Shown one piece after another: positions 2 through 22,524 of a stretch of DNA of 31,518 nucleotides (the stretch's first letter is position 1; each line of letters starts with the position of its first letter). The position numbers were made by a program, and so were the translations under genes. Below the pieces are notes generated by a model. That model saw nothing but the letters and a program-made list of their open reading frames with translations, did no database searches and was not told where the DNA came from. This stretch comes from a virus, in IMG/VR virus record IMGVR_UViG_3300020421_000089, positions 1 to 31,518 of that record; one strand, given 5' to 3'.

Positions 2-454
2 GATGAAAAAGAATTAAACAAGTTTGTAATTAATTTTAGAGAAGAGTTTCTTAAAGTAAAACCAGAAATGATTTCTTTTCCTAGGTCTGTCAATGGCCTA
101 TCAAAGTATTTTGATAGTGGTACAACATTTAAAAAGTCAACACCTATGCATATCAAAGGTGCTCTGATTTACAATCACAAAATCAAACAAAACAAACTTA
201 TTAATAAGTATCCTTTGATACAAGAAGGTGATAAGATTAAGTTTGTTTATCTTAAACAACCAAACCCATATACTTCAAATGTAATTACTTACATTACTAA
301 ATTACCTAAAGAGTTTGACATACACAGTTTTGTAGATTACGAATTACAGTTTGAGAAAGTTTTTGTTGAACCTTTAACATTAATATTAAACACAATCAGA
401 TGGAGTATTGATAGAACTTATGGTACTCAAGGTACATTGGAGGATTTCTTTTGA
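2..454 (+). CDS. 43: DNA polymerase, family B (T4 gp43-like), C-terminal fragment
   Basis: The reading frame is open from the window edge, so this is the last 150 residues of a longer protein; the first internal Met is at 68. The segments ISFPRSVNGLSKY, TPMHIKGALIYNH, GDKIKFVYLKQPNP and VDYELQFEKVFVEPL match the thumb and C-terminal part of T4-type replicative polymerases. The protein ends in GTLEDFF, a hydrophobic/acidic tail of the type that docks the polymerase on the gp45 sliding clamp. The polymerase and exonuclease active-site motifs lie outside the window. The codons for the final LEDFF also supply the Shine-Dalgarno (GGAGG, 439-443) and part of the TTG start of the next gene. The family call is confident; only the fragment is visible. 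Confidence 0.93.
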   Translation, partial: DEKELNKFVINFREEFLKVKPEMISFPRSVNGLSKYFDSGTTFKKSTPMHIKGALIYNHKIKQNKLINKYPLIQEGDKIKFVYLKQPNPYTSNVITYITKLPKEFDIHSFVDYELQFEKVFVEPLTLILNTIRWSIDRTYGTQGTLEDFF

Positions 455-1275
455 TAGCTAAATTACTTATAGAACACATAGAACAAAAAACAAATGAACA
501 AGAAGTTGCAGTATTATTATCAGGTGGAGTAGATTCTATATCTGTTGCATTTGCTGCACATCTTGCCTTTAAAAAGATTAGATGTTATAGTTTTCAACTT
601 GATAATAATCCATCATATGATTTTAAAAAGGCAGAAGAGATATGTAAAATAATGAAGTGGCCGTTCGTTGGTGTGAATGTACCAGTTGCCAATTTAGAAG
701 ATGATTTTAAAAGATTATTAAAACACGGATGTCAAAAGAAAACACATTTTGAGTGTGTGTATCCCTTTCTATATGTCTATGAATGGATAAGTGAAAAGTA
801 TGTATTATCTGGTTGGGCAGCAGATGGTTATTATGGTGTAAGTAAAAAGGCTTGTATGCATTTCAAAGAACCTAAATCATTGTTTGACCAATTCAGAAAT
901 GATTATTTTAAAAAAGAAAATCGTGCAGGTTATTTACAACATAAAAAACTTGCAGACAAACATAATAAAGTATTTGTAACACCATACTTAGACAAAGAAG
1001 TTAAAAATTATTTCTATCAATATGATTGGTATCAATTAAATAAACCATATCAAAAACATATGGTCAGAGATGCTTTCAAATCATACTTCAACAGAATAGG
1101 TAAAGTAAAGAATCATTTAAATTTACAATTAGATAGTGGCATAGCAAACCTGTTTGAAACTTTGCTAAATAATAATAAAATAAATTTTAATAAAAGAAAT
1201 CGCATGTTAGAGGTTTACAAAGACTGGAAAGTATGTTACAATGGTGACACTTCGTTGGAGAATTTTTTTGTATAA
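451..1275 (+). CDS. Stand-alone asparagine-synthetase-type PP-loop amidoligase (candidate DNA-base amidation enzyme)
   Basis: A 274-residue protein. The PP-loop LSGGVDS lies at 23-29. LSGWAADGYYGV at 119-130 matches the GEGADELFGGY region of asparagine synthetases. TPYLDKEVKNYF (about 177-188) matches their PFLD motif, and KHMVRDAF (202-209) followed by a KVKNHLNLQ stretch matches their C-terminal ReaF...K region. The N-terminal glutaminase domain of AsnB is absent, so free ammonia or another amine would be the nucleophile. The family adenylates a carboxylate and then forms an amide. A TTG start at 451 is set by GGAGG at 439-443 and a 4-base overlap with the polymerase stop. The C-terminus SLENFFV resembles the polymerase clamp tail LEDFF. 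It overlaps the next gene by 8 bases and heads the methyltransferase/CmoA cassette, so I infer its substrate is a carboxylated DNA base. A tRNA- or small-molecule-directed role is possible. Confidence 0.8.
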   Translation: MIAKLLIEHIEQKTNEQEVAVLLSGGVDSISVAFAAHLAFKKIRCYSFQLDNNPSYDFKKAEEICKIMKWPFVGVNVPVANLEDDFKRLLKHGCQKKTHFECVYPFLYVYEWISEKYVLSGWAADGYYGVSKKACMHFKEPKSLFDQFRNDYFKKENRAGYLQHKKLADKHNKVFVTPYLDKEVKNYFYQYDWYQLNKPYQKHMVRDAFKSYFNRIGKVKNHLNLQLDSGIANLFETLLNNNKINFNKRNRMLEVYKDWKVCYNGDTSLENFFV

Positions 1276-2422
1276 GAAGTATTTTATGAAAGATGTTATT
1301 GAAGCATCTAAAGAAGAAAAGTTTACAGTTATATCTACATTTGCTGGTGGTGGCGGTTCATCAACTGGTTACAGACTTGCAGGTGGTAAAATATTATTAG
1401 TAAATGAATTTGTTGAAGCTGCAAGACAAACATATAAAGATAATTATCCTGATACAGAAATATTACCACAAGATATAAAAGACTTAACAGGTTTTGATTT
1501 TTTAGATACTGCTGGTATAAAACCAGGTGAGTTAGACATATTAGATGGTTCACCTCCTTGTTCTGCATTTAGTATTGCAGGTAAAAGAGATAAAGGCTGG
1601 GACCAAGAGAAAGAATATTCAGATGGTAAGAAAGTAGAAAATATTGAAGACCTATTTCTAGAATATGTTAGAATAGCAAAAGAGATTAAACCAAAAGTTA
1701 TTGTTGCAGAAAATGTAAAAGGTATAACTGTTGGTGAAGCAAAACAGAAACTTAACGAGTTTATAAATGCATTTCAGAATATAGGTTATGATGTTACTTA
1801 CAAAGTTATGAATGCTGCACACTATGGTGTTCCACAAGCAAGAGAAAGAACTATGTTTGTTTGTGTAAGAGAAGATGTTTGTGAGTCTGTTGGTTTAAAT
1901 TTTATGACACTTGGTAATATATTTCCAAAAGAAAATGATGAGATGGTAACATTAAGACACGCACTTGAAGATATAGAAAACGATAAAGATGAAGAGCAAA
2001 TGTTATTAGATTATGTTCAAGCTGGTTTTCAAAAGAAATGGATAGAACTGTTAGAGTTTGACCCACCTAAACATTTAAAACCATCTGACGAAAGATTTAT
2101 TGATATTAATCCTAAAAGGTCTATGTTTAATATGATTAGGCCTTGTCAAGATTTACCTTGTCCTACATTGACACAAAGAGGTCAACAAACTGTAGTGTCT
2201 GGTGTATTTCATCCTATGAAACATAGAAAGTTTACTGTACCAGAACTAAAAAGAATTATGTCACTACCTGAAGATTTTGTAATGAAGTCAGATAAAGAAA
2301 CTGTAGCTAAAAGATTTGACCAAAGTGCTGAGAGAATTGGTCGTATGGTTGCACCTAAAATGATGGCATCACTTGCCGATGCAATTTATGTAAATATATT
2401 GGAGCCTTATAATAATGTATAA
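1268..2422 (+). CDS. C5-cytosine DNA methyltransferase paralogue A (predicted carboxymethyltransferase)
   Basis: A 384-residue C5-cytosine methyltransferase. Visible motifs are motif I FAGGGGSSTG, motif IV GSPPCSAFS with the catalytic Cys98, motif VI AENV, motif VIII QARERTMFV, a short target-recognition stretch around FNMIRPCQDLPCPTLT, motif IX KRIMSLPEDF and motif X ERIGRMVAPKMM. In motif X the usual Asn of GN.V.P is Arg (codon 2342-2344). This is the site where Asn-to-Lys makes other C5 enzymes accept carboxy-SAM. I chose the TTG start at 1268 over ATG 1241 or ATG 1286: GGAG at 1257-1260 is 7 bases upstream, and from TTG the N-terminus aligns residue for residue with paralogue B, placing the catalytic Cys at 98 in both. 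No restriction endonuclease is nearby. Methyl or carboxymethyl transfer cannot be settled from sequence alone. Confidence 0.9.
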   Translation: MYKKYFMKDVIEASKEEKFTVISTFAGGGGSSTGYRLAGGKILLVNEFVEAARQTYKDNYPDTEILPQDIKDLTGFDFLDTAGIKPGELDILDGSPPCSAFSIAGKRDKGWDQEKEYSDGKKVENIEDLFLEYVRIAKEIKPKVIVAENVKGITVGEAKQKLNEFINAFQNIGYDVTYKVMNAAHYGVPQARERTMFVCVREDVCESVGLNFMTLGNIFPKENDEMVTLRHALEDIENDKDEEQMLLDYVQAGFQKKWIELLEFDPPKHLKPSDERFIDINPKRSMFNMIRPCQDLPCPTLTQRGQQTVVSGVFHPMKHRKFTVPELKRIMSLPEDFVMKSDKETVAKRFDQSAERIGRMVAPKMMASLADAIYVNILEPYNNV

Positions 2423-3533
2423 ACCATATTATTTAAAAGATGTAATTGATAGTGAGAAAAGAGAATTGTTTACTGTAATGTCAACTTTTGCTGGTGGCGG
2501 TGGTTCATCAACTGGTTATAGATTGGCTGGTGGTAAGATACTTGCAATAAATGAGTTTGTTGAAGAGGCTAGAAAAACATATAGTGAGAATTATCCTAAT
2601 ACACCTATTATGCCTGATGATATAAAAGAGATTACAGGTAAAGATATATTAGATTTAATTAATTTGAAAGAGGGTGAACTTGATATACTTGATGGTTCAC
2701 CACCTTGTTCTGCATTTTCAGTTGCAGGTGCAATGGTACAAGGTGGTCATTCAAAAGGATTTAATCAGACTAAGAAATATTCAGATGGTAAAAAGATAGA
2801 GAATATAGAAGATTTATTTTTTGAGTATCTAAGAGTTGCAAAAGAAATCAAACCAAAAGTGATAGTGGGTGAGAATGTTGCTGGTTTGACTATGGGTGAA
2901 GCAAAAGAATACTATAACAAAATAACAAATACTTTTGAACAGATAGGTTATGATGTATCATCTAAAGTTTTAGATTCATCTCACTATGGTGTTGCACAAA
3001 CTAGAAAGAGATTAATTTTTATTGCAGTTCGTGAAGATGTAACTGCAGATGTAGGTTTAACATTTATGAATATATCAAGCGTCTTTCCTGAGAAGTTTAC
3101 AGATGCAATGACTTGTGGTGAAGTATTTGAAAACTTAGAGTATGATGAAGAAGAGATAAAAGAACTTACAGAATCATTTGCAAGAGGTTCACATTTTGAA
3201 ACAGCATCAAAGATGCCAAAAGACCCAGAGAAAGTTTTGACTGGTGCAAACTATCATCCTAAAGGCCACCACTTTAATATGAAAAGAATATCAAGACATA
3301 AACCATCACCAACGATTACAGCATCGGGTGGTTGTATTCACTGGTCTGATATGAGAAAATTAGCATTATGTGAAACAAGAAGAATAATGTCTTTACCTGA
3401 AGACTTTAAACTTACAGGTAAATGGAAACAAAAGAGTGAGCGTATGGGTAGAATGGTACCTCCTCTTATGATGAAAGCTATTGCAGAATCAGTATATGAA
3501 AAAGTATTGAAACCATACAAGGAGAAAAAATGA
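2415..3533 (+). CDS. C5-cytosine DNA methyltransferase paralogue B (predicted carboxymethyltransferase)
   Basis: A 372-residue tandem paralogue of the preceding gene, overlapping it by 8 bases. It has motif I FAGGGGSSTG, motif IV GSPPCSAFS (Cys98), motif VI GENV, motif VIII AQTRKRLIFI, a recognition stretch around HFNMKRISRHKPSPTIT, motif IX RRIMSLPEDF and motif X ERMGRMVPPLMM. Motif X again has Arg (residue 346, codon 3450-3452) in place of the family Asn. The N-terminal half is very close to paralogue A. The segment between motifs VIII and IX differs in sequence and length, and B has an insertion (AMVQGGHSKGF) after motif IV. That pattern suggests different target sequences with the same cofactor choice. 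The start ATG 2415 has GGAG at 2401-2404, a rather long spacing. Confidence 0.9.
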   Translation: MYKPYYLKDVIDSEKRELFTVMSTFAGGGGSSTGYRLAGGKILAINEFVEEARKTYSENYPNTPIMPDDIKEITGKDILDLINLKEGELDILDGSPPCSAFSVAGAMVQGGHSKGFNQTKKYSDGKKIENIEDLFFEYLRVAKEIKPKVIVGENVAGLTMGEAKEYYNKITNTFEQIGYDVSSKVLDSSHYGVAQTRKRLIFIAVREDVTADVGLTFMNISSVFPEKFTDAMTCGEVFENLEYDEEEIKELTESFARGSHFETASKMPKDPEKVLTGANYHPKGHHFNMKRISRHKPSPTITASGGCIHWSDMRKLALCETRRIMSLPEDFKLTGKWKQKSERMGRMVPPLMMKAIAESVYEKVLKPYKEKK

Positions 3534-4234
3534 CAAAGTATGATTTTACTTTTGCACACAGAGAAGAAGGATTTGACGAACACATAGAACACTCTATTCG
3601 TGGTTATTCTAATTTATTAGATGATGTTGTTAATCTTTCAAAATATTTTGTAGAACCAGATACCAAAGTTGTTGATGTTGGTTGTTCTACAGGTAAGGTT
3701 ACAAAAAGAATGATAGAATCACATTTAGATATAAACATTGATGATGTGATATATGAAGGTGTTGAACTGGCAAAAGGTTTTGAGAAACCATTAGAAAATA
3801 GAAGAAAAGAATTAAGTAAAGAATACCCAGAGAGTAATGTTAATTTTATAAATGATGATGTAAGATTTTATGAATTTAAGAATTGTTCTCTAGTAACTTC
3901 AATATTCACTTTACAATTTATGCCTATGAAAGATAGGTCTAAATTAATCTCTCAGATTTATGAAGGATTAAATGTTGGTGGTGGATTTATCTTTGCAGAG
4001 AAGTTATTATGTAGTAATGCAAAGATACAAGAAATGATGACTTTCAATTATTATGATTATAAGAGAAAACATTTTGAAGCAAAAGATATAATGGATAAAG
4101 AGAAAACATTAAGACATATGTTAAAACCAAATACTTGGAAACAAATAAAAGATATGATACTTGATGCAGGCTTTCAAGATGTACAATGTTTCTGGAGTAA
4201 TCATATGTTTGTTGGTGCATTGGCGTTAAAATAA
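3530..4234 (+). CDS. cmoA-like: CmoA-like carboxy-S-adenosylmethionine synthase
   Basis: A 234-residue class I SAM-fold protein that aligns along its length with E. coli CmoA. RGYSN (24-28) matches [14 protein letters not shown] (47-55) matches [17 protein letters not shown] (125-132) matches [18 protein letters not shown] (143-152) matches IYQGLNPGGA, FAEK (155-158) matches LSEK, and the ends FVGALALK and FGSLVALK agree. CmoA converts SAM plus prephenate to carboxy-SAM, normally for CmoB in wobble-uridine modification. No cmoB is in the window, and the gene is coupled (ATGA overlap, GGAG at 3521-3524) to two C5-methyltransferases. I therefore infer that its product feeds DNA carboxymethylation. 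The E. coli Arg199 region aligns with MDKEKTL (188-194), where the basic partner is most likely Lys192; this alignment is ambiguous and is the weak point of the call. A plain methyltransferase is the alternative. Confidence 0.85.
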
Positions 4235-4244
4235 AGGAGATAAT

Positions 4245-5291
4245 ATGACAGATTTTTTAAAAGATGTTATAAAAACAACTGGTAATGAATATGCTGCACT
4301 TGTTTCAGAAGGTGTTGAAGCTGGTGATGTAGATACATTTATTGATACTGGTTCTTATATATTTAATGCATTACTATCTGGTTCTATTAATGGTGGATTA
4401 CCTGCAAATAAAATCACTGCAATCGCTGGTGAGAGTGCAACAGGTAAAACATTTTTTGTTATGGGAATGTGTAAAAGATTTCTAGATGAAAATCCAGATG
4501 GTGGTGTTATATATTTTGAGAGTGAAAGTGCAATTACAAAACAAATGGTTATAGATAGAGGTATTGATGCAAATCGTATGGTAATACTTCCTGTAACCAC
4601 AGTACAAGAATTTAGAACACAGGCTATAAAAGTTTTAGATGCATATATAAATCAAGATGCAGCTAGTCGTAAACCTATGTTTCTTGCACTAGATTCACTT
4701 GGTATGTTATCAACAACAAAAGAAGTTGAAGATACAGCTGAGGGTAAAGAAACTAGAGATATGACTAGAGCACAATTACTCAAAGCAGCATTTAGAGTTT
4801 TAACTTTGAAACTCGGTAAAGCAAGAGTACCTATGGTAGTTACTAACCACACATATGATGTAGTTGGTTCTATGTTTCCACAAAAAGAAATGGGTGGTGG
4901 TTCTGGATTAAAATATGCAGCATCATCTATTGTTTATCTTTCAAAGAAAAAAGAAAAAGATGGAACAGAAGTTGTGGGTAATATTATACATTGTAAAAAC
5001 TTTAAATCAAGACTTACAGTTGAAAATAAAATGGTTGATGTAAGATTAACTTATAATAAAGGTCTTGATAGATATTATGGGTTACTTGAACTTGCTGAAA
5101 AGTATAAAGTGTTTAAGAAAGTTGCAACAAGATTTGAGTTACCAGATGGTTCAAAACAATATGGTAAAACTATTTTGAATGACCCAAAGAAATATTTCAC
5201 TCAAGATATTATGGACATTTTAGAAGAGTGTGCTAAGAAGGAGTTTAGATATGGCGGAACAGTTGAAGAACGCGAAACGAGCAGCGAATGA
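4245..5291 (+). CDS. uvsX: UvsX RecA-like recombinase
   Basis: A 348-residue RecA-family strand-exchange ATPase. Walker A GESATGKT is at 62-69. The Walker B-like strand is [12 protein letters not shown], and the DNA-binding loop region lies around NHTYDV and [12 protein letters not shown], as in T4 UvsX. UvsX loads on single-stranded DNA and drives recombination-dependent replication and repair in T4-like phages. A ribosome site, AAGGAG, precedes ATG 4245. The gene opens the replication block and directly follows the cytosine-modification cassette. Length and motifs fit the marine T4-like UvsX group. Confidence 0.95.
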
Positions 5292-5658
5292 TAGAACTAA
5301 ACAGTTTTTAGGTGTAGTGGCTGATGACTACGCATTTGTAGAAAACAAAGGTAAAACTAAAACAGAATGTATTGGTATCAAAGGCGGAAAGTATGATGGT
5401 ATTGTTTACAGATATGGTAAAGTTGCCGCAGTTGAAGACCAAAATAGAGTAGGTCTAGAAGCCACATTAAAATTTCAGTATAATATTGTTGACTATAATG
5501 GACTAAAAGAAGAGCACATAGGTGACGATTTTAGAAATCTAATAGGTGATATTTTATGTGATATAGTTGATACTTATTATACTTACAAACCAAAGGAAGA
5601 AAATGAATCTGGAAAATCAGACGATAGAAAAGACGACCCTAAGTCAACTGATACATAA
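5251..5658 (+). CDS. Conserved hypothetical protein between uvsX and helicase 41
   Basis: A 135-residue protein beginning [19 protein letters not shown]. The start ATG 5251 is chosen because GGAG at 5240-5243 precedes it; the upstream in-frame Met at 5230 would extend it into uvsX. It overlaps the end of uvsX by 41 bases and the start of the helicase gene by 56 bases. I recognise no domain. The middle ([28 protein letters not shown] is the region at about 28-55) is beta-rich, and the tail is short, acidic and disordered. Its position between uvsX and gene 41 is where T4 has gene 40 and suggests a replication accessory role, but I see no similarity to T4 gp40. Confidence 0.8.
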
Positions 5659-7009
5659 TGAAAACTTTAATAGAAAGGTAATACCTTTTCTAAAAAAAGG
5701 TTATTTTAAAGAGAGAAGCGAACAGATTCTTTTTGAAGAAATAAATGATTTTGTAGAAAAGTATTCTAACCCACCGACAAAGGAAGCGTTAGAGATTGAG
5801 ATTGACAATAGAAAAGATTTGTCAGATACCGAACATAAACAAACTGTTGAACTATTAAAAACACTAAAACATAATGATGTAGATTTTAAGTGGTTAACAG
5901 ATAGTGTTGAAAAGTTTTGTAAAGATAGAGCAGTATATAATGCTGTTGTAGATAGTATTAGAATTATTGATAACAAAGATAAAGATAATACACCAGAATC
6001 TATACCATCAATATTATCAGATGCTTTATCTGTATCTTTTGATAATCACATTGGACACGATTATATAGAAGAAGCTCAAAAGAGGTATAATTATTATCAT
6101 ACAGTAGAAGATAGAATACCCTTTGACTTAGAATATTTTAATAAAATTACTAAAGGTGGTTTACCGAATAAGACATTAAACATTGCACTTGCTGGTACAG
6201 GTGTTGGTAAATCATTATTTATGTGTCATATGGCTGCATCAACATTGATGCAAGGTAAGAATGTATTGTACATTACACTAGAGATGGCAGAAGAAAAGAT
6301 TGCAGAAAGAATAGATGCAAATCTTATGAATTTGTCTATAGATGATTTACACGAATTACCAAAGAAAATGTTTGATGATAAGATTAATAGTATATCAAAG
6401 AAGACAGTTGGTAAATTAGTAATAAAAGAATATCCAACTGCATCGGCACACAGTGGCCATTTTAAAAGTTTAATCAAAGAACTTGCATTAAAGAAAACAT
6501 TTAAACCTGATGTTATTTTTATTGATTATTTAAATATATGTTCATCATCAAGGTTCAAAGGTAATGCAAGTGTCGGTTCTTATTTTTACATAAAGGCAAT
6601 AGCAGAAGAATTAAGAGGATTAGCAGTTGAGTCTAATGTTCCGATAGTTTCTGCAACACAAACAACAAGAAGTGCATATACTTCTACAGATGTAGGTTTA
6701 GAAGATACTTCAGAAAGTTTTGGTTTACCAGCAACTGCAGATTTAATGTTTGCATTAATATCCACAGAAGAGTTAGAAGATTTAAATCAGATAATGATTA
6801 AACAATTAAAAAACAGATACAACGACCCAACAATGAATAAAAGATTTATTTTAGGAATTGATAGAGCTAAAATGAGATTATATGATGTTGAACAAGTTGC
6901 TCAAAAAGATGTTGTTGACTCAGGTCAAGATGAACCAGTCTTTGATAATACAAGTGTAGGAAATAGATTGGAGAAGTCTTATGAGAAATTCTCGGACCTC
7001 AAAATATAG
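5603..7009 (+). CDS. 41: Replicative DNA helicase, DnaB-like (T4 gp41-like)
   Basis: A 468-residue RecA-fold hexameric helicase. Walker A GTGVGKS is at 198-204, Walker B is PDVIFIDYLNIC, and the helicase motif ISATQTTRSAY follows. The N-terminal domain, about 1-150, is of the DnaB/gp41 type. The start ATG 5603 has AAGGA five bases upstream. The upstream in-frame ATG 5567 lies deep inside the preceding gene and lacks a ribosome site. The helicase unwinds the lagging-strand template and recruits the primase, which here is encoded separately at 24134. The gene end overlaps the next small gene by 29 bases. Confidence 0.95.
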   Translation: MNLENQTIEKTTLSQLIHNENFNRKVIPFLKKGYFKERSEQILFEEINDFVEKYSNPPTKEALEIEIDNRKDLSDTEHKQTVELLKTLKHNDVDFKWLTDSVEKFCKDRAVYNAVVDSIRIIDNKDKDNTPESIPSILSDALSVSFDNHIGHDYIEEAQKRYNYYHTVEDRIPFDLEYFNKITKGGLPNKTLNIALAGTGVGKSLFMCHMAASTLMQGKNVLYITLEMAEEKIAERIDANLMNLSIDDLHELPKKMFDDKINSISKKTVGKLVIKEYPTASAHSGHFKSLIKELALKKTFKPDVIFIDYLNICSSSRFKGNASVGSYFYIKAIAEELRGLAVESNVPIVSATQTTRSAYTSTDVGLEDTSESFGLPATADLMFALISTEELEDLNQIMIKQLKNRYNDPTMNKRFILGIDRAKMRLYDVEQVAQKDVVDSGQDEPVFDNTSVGNRLEKSYEKFSDLKI

Positions 7010-7205
7010 AAAAAATAAAATAAAATATTATGTTGATGTCACTTGGAGAAACAAAGAAGCAGTTTATGTTGTTGTTGAATTACCAACAAATGATGTTGTC
7101 AAAACATTTAAGTTTAAGGAAGACGCTGAAGATATGGCAGAACAATTAATGAAAGTTAAACCTTTTGGTCATCAACCATTACCTAAATTCTTAAAGGAAC
7201 AATAA
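6981..7205 (+). CDS. Small hypothetical protein
   Basis: A 74-residue basic protein starting MRNSRTSKYRKNKIKYYVDV. It is preceded by GGAG at 6970-6973 and overlaps the end of the helicase gene. It has a short beta-rich core (YYVDVTWRNKEAVYVVVEL) followed by a helix with FKEDAEDMAEQL. I recognise no family. Coupling to the helicase and the oxygenase genes (TAATG junction at 7203-7207) makes it a real gene. Its function is not inferable. Confidence 0.75.
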   Translation: MRNSRTSKYRKNKIKYYVDVTWRNKEAVYVVVELPTNDVVKTFKFKEDAEDMAEQLMKVKPFGHQPLPKFLKEQ

Positions 7206-7780
7206 TGAACTATAATGAACGAAAAAGATATAAAGATGCAAAGTTTTTTAAGTTTAGTGAAGAATATCCTGTAATTATGAAAACATATCCTGATTGGAAA
7301 GAAATAAATCCTATTCTTGAAAAATATATCAGAGAACAAGGTGATAGAAAAAATAAAAGAACTAATGTAAAAGCATCAATGACAGAGTGGAATATGCAAG
7401 TTGAAGCTGGCGGTGAACACTTTCAAAAGATATGTGATTTTGCAAGAGAGTTGTCTTTAGAAAATTCACCTGTACAATTTATTCCAGATGTTTATGATTG
7501 TTGGGGTGCAGTTTATAGAAAAGGTGAATTTACTCAATCACACGACCACTGGCCATCTATTTGGAGTTGGTGTTATTATGTAAATGTTTCTTCTAAGTGT
7601 TCACCACTACATTTTAAGAATGCAAGTGGTATTCTTAATGAACCACTTAATGTACAACCAAGTAATGGTTTGATGGTTATATTTCCAGGATGGGTTAAAC
7701 ACGAAGTTAAACCACAAATGTGTGACCACGAAAGAGTTATGATTGCTGGTAATATAAATGCAAGAGGTGCTGCATTTTAA
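7205..7780 (+). CDS. 2OG-Fe(II) oxygenase-like protein, paralogue 1
   Basis: A 191-residue double-stranded beta-helix oxygenase of the small phage type. The iron-site region QSHDHWPS holds His113, Asp114 and His115. FPGWVKHEV supplies His166, and HERVMIAGNI supplies Arg177 for 2-oxoglutarate. The shape (HxH/HD early, FP.W..H late, then R) resembles the putative 2OG-Fe(II) oxygenase family common in marine phages. The substrate is unknown. The gene is followed by a diverged tandem copy with a 1-base overlap (TAATG), so the two may form a heteromer or have split substrates. Confidence 0.8.
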   Translation: MNYNERKRYKDAKFFKFSEEYPVIMKTYPDWKEINPILEKYIREQGDRKNKRTNVKASMTEWNMQVEAGGEHFQKICDFARELSLENSPVQFIPDVYDCWGAVYRKGEFTQSHDHWPSIWSWCYYVNVSSKCSPLHFKNASGILNEPLNVQPSNGLMVIFPGWVKHEVKPQMCDHERVMIAGNINARGAAF

Positions 7781-8313
7781 TGAAAGAAGTTACTTTTACA
7801 AAAAGGGTAAAAATTGTAGAATCAATTTATGATGACCACGAAACATTAAACCCTAAATTAGAAAAGATAATTAGAGAACAAGGTGATAGACAAAATTATC
7901 GTACAGCTTTAAAAGCACATATGACAGAAATGAATATGTTAAAAGAAGATAATAGTGAGCCTTTTCACGAATTATCTGATTACATATACAAAGAATCATT
8001 AAGTATATCTCCTGCAGTTTACAAACCAACTTTTATAGATTGTTGGGGTGGTTTATATAAAGTTGGTCATCACGCTGAAATACACGACCACTGGCCTGCT
8101 TTATATAGTTTTGTGTATTATGTTAATGTGTCTGAAGAGTGTTCACCACTTGTGTTAACAGATTGTGGGTTTCATTATATCAAACCAAAGAATGGTTTAC
8201 TTACAGTATTTCCTGGTTGGATTAAACATTTTGTACCAAAACAAGAAAGTTCACACGAAAGAATAATAGTTTCAGGAAATATATCACCAAAAAACATTTA
8301 CAATTCCACTTGA
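7780..8313 (+). CDS. 2OG-Fe(II) oxygenase-like protein, paralogue 2
   Basis: A 177-residue tandem paralogue of the previous gene. It shares IIREQGDRQN (30-39), IHDHWPALYSFVYYVNVS (101-118), a late FPGWIKHFV with His150 and ERIIVSGNIS with Arg161. The candidate iron ligands are His102, Asp103 and His104 plus His150, all kept, so both copies look catalytically intact. Its stop codon overlaps the -35 element of the downstream promoter. No substrate can be assigned; peptide proline hydroxylation and base or nucleotide oxidation are both possible for small phage oxygenases. Confidence 0.8.
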   Translation: MKEVTFTKRVKIVESIYDDHETLNPKLEKIIREQGDRQNYRTALKAHMTEMNMLKEDNSEPFHELSDYIYKESLSISPAVYKPTFIDCWGGLYKVGHHAEIHDHWPALYSFVYYVNVSEECSPLVLTDCGFHYIKPKNGLLTVFPGWIKHFVPKQESSHERIIVSGNISPKNIYNST

Positions 8314-21556: not shown

Positions 21557-22051
21557 ATGAGATTCAAAGAATACTATAATTTTCCATATTCAGACATAAG
21601 TCAAAAACCTATGGCTGATTTAAATGCATCTAAAAAGAAAAAAGAAAAAAAAGTTAATGAGAAAATTAATATTCCTGATGCAACTTATGCAGCAGATATG
21701 CATTCAGATGGAACTATGAGTGTCCAAAAGGTAATGGGTAAACCAGTTTTAATTATGAAAAGTTATCATAAAGAAAAAGATGGTCAAGACTTTGCAAAAG
21801 CTTATGGTTATAAAGTAAAGAATTACAAGAAGACACCAAGAGGTTCAAGAATGGATATTTCAGAAAAAGTTGAATTAAATGAAAAAAGAGTTGCACAAGG
21901 TAATGTTGCAATTTCTTTTGATGTTGATTCTTTCGGTGGTAAGAAAGCAACATTGTTTGTTAAGGGTACTGGTATTATTGATATTCCTGCAAGTCAAGGT
22001 AAAAACTTTTTAGCAGTTGTTAAAAAATTAAGAGATAGTGATTTTAAATAA
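21557..22051 (+). CDS. Small basic modular protein
   Basis: A 164-residue protein starting MRFKEYYNFPYSDIS. The start is only loosely like the capsid-targeting peptides and lacks Glu10. A Lys-rich linker (KKKKEKKVNEK) follows, then a DGTMSVQKVMGKPVLIM region and a C-terminal beta domain with AISFDVDSFGGKKATLFV. Spacing is 4 bases from the previous stop, and there is a 1-base overlap with the spanin gene. No family recognised. Confidence 0.6.
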   Translation: MRFKEYYNFPYSDISQKPMADLNASKKKKEKKVNEKINIPDATYAADMHSDGTMSVQKVMGKPVLIMKSYHKEKDGQDFAKAYGYKVKNYKKTPRGSRMDISEKVELNEKRVAQGNVAISFDVDSFGGKKATLFVKGTGIIDIPASQGKNFLAVVKKLRDSDFK

Positions 22052-22524
22052 TGATTTTTAGTCAAATTAAAATGGCAATGACTATTATTCTATTAGTCGG
22101 TATTAGTGGAGCTGTCATATATGTTATGAAGCTTCGTTCAGATAATGCCATTCTCAAAGCAAATCAAGTAAAATTAGAAGCCGCAGTAGAAACTCAAAAA
22201 GAAGCATTAGAACAACAAAAGAAAGACTTTGATGCTATTATGATAGCTAATAAGAATCTTACTGAATTGAATAACAATTTAAGAAAAGATTTAAATGAAC
22301 TAGACAAAAGATTTAATAAAAAAGAAAGAGATATAGGTAAACTAGCAATAGAAAGAACAAAGGCAATTGAGAGAGTAATAAATAAAGCGAGCAAGAGTGC
22401 TAAAAGATGTGTTGAGATTGCATCAGGTGCACCATTAACTGAAGAGGAAAAGAATGCAACAAAGAAAAGTGAAATCAATAGGGAATGTCCTTCTATCGCT
22501 AATCCTAATTATGTTCCTTACTAG
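22051..22524 (+). CDS. Rz: Rz-like inner-membrane spanin subunit
   Basis: A 157-residue protein. One N-terminal transmembrane helix (about 9-27, MTIILLVGISGAVIYVM) is followed by a long coiled coil (about 29-120) and a Cys-containing C-terminus. This is the architecture of i-spanins, which link to an outer-membrane partner and fuse the two membranes at lysis. The overlapping downstream lipoprotein gene in another frame is the classic Rz/Rz1 arrangement. There is no sequence identity claim to lambda Rz; the call rests on layout. Confidence 0.75.
   Translation: MIFSQIKMAMTIILLVGISGAVIYVMKLRSDNAILKANQVKLEAAVETQKEALEQQKKDFDAIMIANKNLTELNNNLRKDLNELDKRFNKKERDIGKLAIERTKAIERVINKASKSAKRCVEIASGAPLTEEEKNATKKSEINRECPSIANPNYVPY

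Follow-up and report, generated by a model that had tools for sequence, protein, structure and literature searches.

Bacterial CmoA is a tRNA-modification protein of the cmo5U34 pathway, in which its partner is CmoB. In this study, we asked what a CmoA homologue does in a virus, where its gene overlaps that of a DNA methyltransferase-like protein. The window, that is, the whole stretch of DNA analysed here, is the complete virus record IMGVR_UViG_3300020421_000089 of 31,518 bases; its left end is cut inside a polymerase gene, hence the record is a fragment. A sequence-only reading had proposed that this CmoA works outside tRNA modification, together with a DNA methyltransferase, and had doubted its use of prephenate and SAM. 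We believe that the CmoA of the window, with high probability, makes the cofactor in an operon for hypermodification of phage DNA.

Gene Organization of the Locus

Four overlapping genes on the same strand occupy positions 451-4234 (+) and encode a CmoY-like ligase, CmoX1, CmoX2 and, last, CmoA. The tandem pair of cytosine methyltransferase-like genes and the asparagine-synthase-like gene upstream of cmoA had been missed by the sequence-only reading. The ATGA overlap that it described between cmoA and the upstream methyltransferase gene is real. The start of CmoX1 is uncertain (ATG at 1241 or TTG at 1268), and TTG 1268 is aligned with the ATG of the copy in the related contig L012. The features of the locus are as follows.

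2..454 (+): C-terminus of family B DNA polymerase, left border of the slot (phrog_262)
451..1275 (+): CmoY-like AMP-forming amide ligase, 274 aa, TTG start (48% identity to S-B43 CmoY; Asn_synthase Pfam)
1241..2422 (+): CmoX1, putative DNA cytosine C5-carboxymethyltransferase, clade I (51% identity to SpCmoX; SPPC Cys107; Arg368)
1898..2224 (+): CmoX1 target-recognition region, residues 220-328, approximate limits (about 30% identity to SpCmoX and to the equivalent CmoX2 region)
2342..2344 (+): CmoX1 Arg368 codon, carboxylate-binding position by alignment (counterpart of SpCmoX Arg350)
2415..3533 (+): CmoX2, putative DNA cytosine C5-carboxymethyltransferase, clade II (63% identity to SpCmoX; Cys98; Arg346)
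3045..3350 (+): CmoX2 target-recognition region, residues 211-312, approximate limits (identity 46% to SpCmoX, 46% to the L008 copy, 79% to the L012 copy)
3450..3452 (+): CmoX2 Arg346 codon, carboxylate-binding position by alignment (counterpart of SpCmoX Arg350)
3530..3533 (+): ATGA overlap of cmoX2 stop and cmoA start (stop TGA 3531-3533, start ATG 3530-3532)
3530..4234 (+): CmoA, putative carboxy-SAM synthase, 234 aa (61% identity to SpCmoA; profiles; fold)
4100..4114 (+): CmoA Glu191...Arg195 (counterpart of E. coli Arg199...Glu203, charges exchanged)
4245..5291 (+): UvsX recombinase, right border of the slot (phrog_97)

Identity of CmoA and CmoY

The open reading frame at 3530-4234 belongs to the CmoA family by both sequence and fold, as the sequence-only reading had claimed. 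It matched the CmoA model TIGR00740 with an E-value of 1.5e-34 and 119.8 bits, below the curated bacterial-equivalog cut-off of 193.3, and phrog_4752 at 1.7e-61. Its best PDB sequence matches were the CmoA structures 1im8, 4gek and 4iwn, and the six best fold matches of its AlphaFold2 model were chains of the same three entries; the TM-score to bacterial CmoA (E. coli, H. influenzae) was 0.82-0.84 (query-normalised). The window CmoA shares 61% identity with CmoA of Synechococcus phage S-B43 and 29% with E. coli CmoA, and the SAM-binding Tyr, Asp, Gly and Ser positions of the latter are kept. By analogy with the 61% identical S-B43 enzyme, which is reported to be active, we regard it as a putative carboxy-SAM synthase.

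The protein encoded upstream of the CmoX pair has an asparagine-synthase-like ATP domain (Asn_synthase Pfam, 1.1e-13) without the glutaminase domain, and shares 48% identity with S-B43 CmoY (256 bits). A PDB sequence search with it gave no match at 0.01, and the best fold matches of its AlphaFold2 model (pLDDT 84.2) were beta-lactam synthetase and asparagine synthetase. From the 48% identity, we infer which amine CmoY of the window would join (glycine in S-B43).

CmoX1 and CmoX2 as Putative Carboxymethyltransferases

For both methyltransferase-like proteins, the top PDB match was the SpCmoX structure 8yf3 (E = 2.2e-151 for CmoX2). The text of Yang et al. (Nat Commun, 7 December 2025, PMC12783734) ties the use of carboxy-SAM to SpCmoX Arg350, which stands in place of HhaI Asn304 (the motif-X Asn), and reports that wild-type SpCmoX accepts carboxy-SAM only. 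Nine SpCmoX positions (Phe25, Glu47, Phe48, Asp69, Ser95-Cys98 and Arg350) are all kept in CmoX1 and CmoX2, with Arg350 represented by Arg368 and Arg346, respectively. Both proteins share the C5 methylase domain and the SPPC and ENV motifs with the M.HhaI-type C5 methyltransferases, whereas their motif-X Asn is changed to Arg. These residues point to CmoX1 and CmoX2 as putative DNA cytosine C5-carboxymethyltransferases.

An independent check was made with eight distant CmoX-like methyltransferases of annotated phages, drawn from 47 records besides six Synechococcus records; the remainder of the 47 were mostly near-identical Flavobacterium and Bacteroides phages. Arg was present at the 350 position in all three records with a CmoA match (Moraxella Mcat8, Streptomyces TurkishDelight and Pseudomonas PaBG), whereas the five records without a CmoA match had Leu, Asn, Met, Met and Met. 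Among 185 CmoX ORFs picked by similarity to the window, a biased sample that includes duplicate contigs and fragments, a motif search found Arg in 181; three of the other four are fragments without the region, and L168 reads ERIARMV, so Arg is there too. C5-methyltransferase relatives in L176, L178 and L179 (Cellulophaga, Flavobacterium and Phocaeicola phages) have Met for the motif-X Asn, and their records lack a CmoA match.

CmoX1 and CmoX2 also scored above cut-off against the profiles of the ordinary Dcm and C-5 methylase families, as would be expected if both were ordinary SAM-dependent C5 methyltransferases and CmoA a vestige. We consider this very improbable. Both proteins have Arg where HhaI has Asn304, and wild-type SpCmoX takes carboxy-SAM only (PMC12783734). 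A vestigial CmoA does not agree with its conservation either: the open frame is kept, and Asp49, Gly51 and Ser53 are found in 96 of 97 distinct copies, the remaining one having a gap.

Comparison with the S-B43 Pathway

The S-B43 pathway, as described in the text of Yang et al. (PMC12783734), consists of CmoA, which produces carboxy-SAM; CmoX, which forms 5-carboxymethylcytosine in DNA at GC motifs; and CmoY, which ligates glycine. According to the same source, the phage DNA contains 5-glycylcarboxymethyl-dC. The window has homologues of the whole set, with identities of 61%, 63%, 51% and 48% for CmoA, CmoX2, CmoX1 and CmoY, respectively. In both phages the genes form a same-strand block with overlaps, CmoY is glutaminase-free, and the Arg and the nucleophile Cys are kept. 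The window differs in having two CmoX instead of one, in its gene order (Y-X1-X2-A versus A-Y-X), and in its genomic slot, which lies between DNA polymerase and UvsX, whereas the S-B43 genes follow helicase and pyrophosphatase genes.

By this precedent, CmoA of the window would convert SAM and host prephenate to carboxy-SAM, and CmoX1 and CmoX2 would use it to carboxymethylate cytosines of the phage DNA at C5, each probably at a target sequence of its own. CmoY would then join an amine to the DNA carboxymethyl group, and the bulky product may shield the phage DNA from host nucleases. The steps themselves were demonstrated by others for the S-B43 set with its one CmoX; what can be read from the window and its relatives is the genes, their order and overlap, the residues, the paralogy and the CmoX2 replacement.

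Co-occurrence of CmoA with CmoX and the Absence of CmoB Matches

The co-occurrence tally covered 165 distinct contigs, including the window and five isolates, after seven second copies of the same contigs had been dropped; the bit thresholds for CmoA, CmoX and CmoY were 50, 100 and 50, respectively. Loci were chosen by similarity to the window proteins (best 80 per scan), and the frequencies hold for near relatives rather than for phages in general. CmoA was found in 142 of the 165 contigs, and CmoX was also present in 132 of these 142. In the best 80 loci fetched with the CmoA profile, CmoX occurred in 71 and CmoY in 36; in the best 80 fetched with CmoX1, CmoA occurred in 57 and CmoY in 52. 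Six of the nine CmoA loci lacking CmoX have at most 384 bases upstream of CmoA, and three (L061, L067 and L070) have more.

CmoA was absent nearby in 23 of the best 80 CmoX loci. When 12 of these were searched across the whole record, two (40.9 and 29.3 kb) had CmoA about 16 kb away, and ten fragments (9 to 23 kb) had none. Therefore, linkage is common but not required, or host CmoA may serve; E. coli CmoA can serve CmoX, according to the text of Yang et al. (PMC12783734). In L143, CmoX lies at 4499-5692 and CmoA at record positions 21603-22268, about 16 kb apart, and therefore cmoX and cmoA need not adjoin.

In bacteria, CmoA serves tRNA modification, and the name of the phage profile remains tRNA methyltransferase. 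On this basis, the CmoA of the window could make carboxy-SAM for the tRNA of host or phage (cmo5U34) and be only a chance neighbour of the DNA methyltransferases. The partner in the tRNA pathway is CmoB, and the sequence-only reading had stated that CmoB is not present. The CmoB model TIGR00452 indeed gave no match in the 31.5-kb window record, probably a fragment, nor in nine further records, five of them phage records titled complete genomes. We rejected the tRNA role on this result, and the presence of CmoX in 132 of the 142 CmoA contigs also stands against it, as does the nearest characterised homologue, which supplies a DNA enzyme (PMC12783734); we hold it to be very unlikely. The co-occurrence, the diagnostic Arg and the 61% identical precedent (PMC12783734) together favour the earlier proposal that CmoA acts outside tRNA modification, with a DNA methyltransferase.

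Candidate Carboxylate-Binding Residues of CmoA

In E. coli CmoA, Arg199 holds the carboxylate by a salt bridge to the carboxymethyl group, as described in the text of Byrne et al. (2013, PMC3663124). The sequence-only reading had aligned Arg199 near Lys192 of the window protein. The neighbourhood was right, and the exact counterpart in the alignment is Glu191, with Lys192 one residue on; the window CmoA thus has Glu in place of the salt-bridge Arg. The doubt about prephenate and SAM raised on this ground is weakened, since the Arg199 and Ser200 positions of S-B43 CmoA are likewise Glu and Lys, and this enzyme is reported to be an active synthase with a kcat of 2.33 per s, ten times the 0.23 per s of E. 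coli CmoA (PMC12783734). Given this S-B43 enzyme, the residue at the Arg199 position is no criterion for phage CmoA.

Each of Lys190, Glu191 and Arg195 is invariant in the 97 distinct phage CmoA sequences (97/97), whereas position 192 is variable (R 44, K 29, Q 13, V 9, I 1, H 1). Lys192 was rejected as a substitute for Arg199 because its position varies among the relatives, and the invariant Arg195 is the better carboxylate-binding candidate. Arg199 and Glu203 of E. coli are one helical turn apart, and the phage group has Glu and Arg at these positions (Glu191 and Arg195 in the window), that is, the charges are exchanged relative to bacterial CmoA; we propose that Arg195 takes over carboxylate binding. 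At the same two positions, the bacterial arrangement is found in PaBG, Ala and Arg in TurkishDelight, and Glu and Ser in Mcat8. Where E. coli CmoA has Asn132 and Asn90, the window protein has Ile and Leu, with the same or similar changes in S-B43 CmoA. The AlphaFold2 model of CmoA has a mean pLDDT of 81.1, the blocks over residues 171-200 average 51-66 and residues 176-180 are below 50, a confidence too low to judge the side-chain geometry of Arg195 from the predicted structure. With the invariant Glu191/Arg195 pair, a few mutants could be used to ask how phage CmoA holds the carboxylate in the absence of Arg199.

The Polymerase-UvsX Slot

Among named phages, the Methylophilales phages Melnitz come closest to the window by helicase (72%), followed by marine viruses and T4-like Kyanoviridae cyanophages. 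Both the polymerase end and UvsX were visible in 32 of the best 80 relatives fetched with UvsX. Seven of these 32 slots hold CmoA, CmoY and CmoX, and 25 hold none of the three. The substrate of TET-type phage oxygenases is the 5-methylcytosine of phage DNA. The Melnitz slot has a C5-methyltransferase and a Tet_JBP oxygenase between polymerase and UvsX, and this cassette shares the slot with the operon of the window (helicase 72%; UvsX 86% over 114 aa). In contrast to the window, Leu occupies the Arg position in Melnitz and a CmoA match is missing from its entire record, which suggests a different chemistry. The slot of other contigs carries an N6/N4-methylase-like protein with a PLP-enzyme-like protein (10 slot proteins from five contigs scanned). 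The polymerase-UvsX interval looks like a slot for DNA-modification cassettes. A defence-system profile scan gave generic methyltransferase matches only.

Several neighbouring genes were also observed. In Melnitz-3 (L183), the C5-methyltransferase with Leu at the Arg350 position and the following Tet_JBP oxygenase, annotated as hypothetical, lie at 4010-6194, and a RimK-like ATP-grasp gene is found upstream of polymerase. L186 (1694-7172) and L185 (5452-7987) encode UvsX about 90% identical to that of the window, but have different slot cassettes with an N6/N4-methylase-like protein (Pfam match for the L185 copy) and PLP-enzyme-like proteins. L186 additionally encodes D-2-hydroxyacid dehydrogenase-like and Asp/Asn beta-hydroxylase-like proteins, as well as a full asparagine synthase that includes the glutaminase domain. 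These cassettes may represent another DNA hypermodification pathway. In the window, two adjoining 2OG-Fe(II) oxygenase genes, TIGR02466-like, follow the helicase at 7205-8313.

Two CmoX Paralogues and Replacement of CmoX2

CmoX1 and CmoX2 of the window share 66.8% identity in the N-terminal catalytic part and 30.4% in the target-recognition region. In a tree of 165 CmoX sequences longer than 330 aa (the equality with the 165 contigs is coincidental), they fall into two deep clades, the split having support of 1.0 and 0.847 on its two sides. More than one CmoX ORF was found in 18 of the 165 contigs, which form three groups by sequence: in the window group of 12 contigs, one copy belongs to clade I and the other to clade II; in L133, L146, L153, L155 and L156 both copies belong to clade I; and in L071 both belong to clade II. 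One copy in each of L007 and L102 is incomplete or split and was left out of the tree. In L102 (8157-9277), a frameshift of the phage or of the assembly divides the second CmoX between two overlapping ORFs.

Compared with L100, a relative with the same slot, the window showed identities of 89.3% (polymerase C-terminus), 85.8% (CmoY), 89.6% (CmoX1), 64.0% (CmoX2), 82.5% (CmoA) and 88.5% (UvsX). Compared with the more distant L012, the corresponding values were 72.0%, 68.0%, 75.3%, 87.1%, 80.7% and 81.4% (partial), respectively. The trees agreed with these values. In the CmoX1 tree, the window groups with L008, L100 and L006 against L012 (support 1.0), whereas in the CmoX2 tree it groups with L012 and others against L008, L100 and L006 (0.995, a clade of 17 excluding them). 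The gene-by-gene identities and the agreeing trees therefore indicate that CmoX2 was exchanged as a unit in the L006/L007/L008/L100 lineage. The replaced CmoX2 is identical in its N-terminal and recognition regions in all four assemblies, which argues against an assembly error, and the replacement is one event, not four. As for its donor, among the 165 CmoX, besides the four identical copies, no sequence was more than 54% identical to the L008 copy over the recognition region, or more than 73% over the N-terminal part.

CmoX1 and CmoX2 might both be carboxymethyltransferases and yet be redundant, acting on the same target sequence. They share an operon and the same catalytic residues, their targets are not readable from sequence, and duplicates could raise dosage. 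However, redundancy fits poorly with a recognition region so much more diverged than the catalytic part, with the two deep clades, and with the replacement of CmoX2 alone in L006, L007, L008 and L100, where the recognition region of CmoX1 is still 92.7% identical. We regard redundancy as possible but rather unlikely. Two target sequences under selection by host nucleases would be the natural explanation for the CmoX2 exchange, and an arms race over specificity may lie behind the replacement.

Implications

The chemistry is already known from one phage, S-B43 (PMC12783734), and the finding of the sequence-only reading as first stated is thereby explained. In the literature on CmoX or carboxymethylcytosine, this was the only paper found on natural phage carboxymethylcytosine, and we found no discussion in its main text of two CmoX paralogues in one operon or of CmoX2 replacement. 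What this study adds is the dual-CmoX form in marine T4-like phages and the replacement of one CmoX alone. The window offers a natural carboxymethyltransferase pair whose target sequences can be compared directly, and if the two CmoX have different targets, they would make a set of tools for placing carboxyl handles at selected motifs in DNA. On an even balance of probability, we speculate that this is a two-specificity system, in which one synthase and one ligase would serve two CmoX, CmoX2 would be an exchangeable cartridge that changes the hypermodified sites, and T4-like marine phages would trade such cassettes in the slot between polymerase and UvsX.
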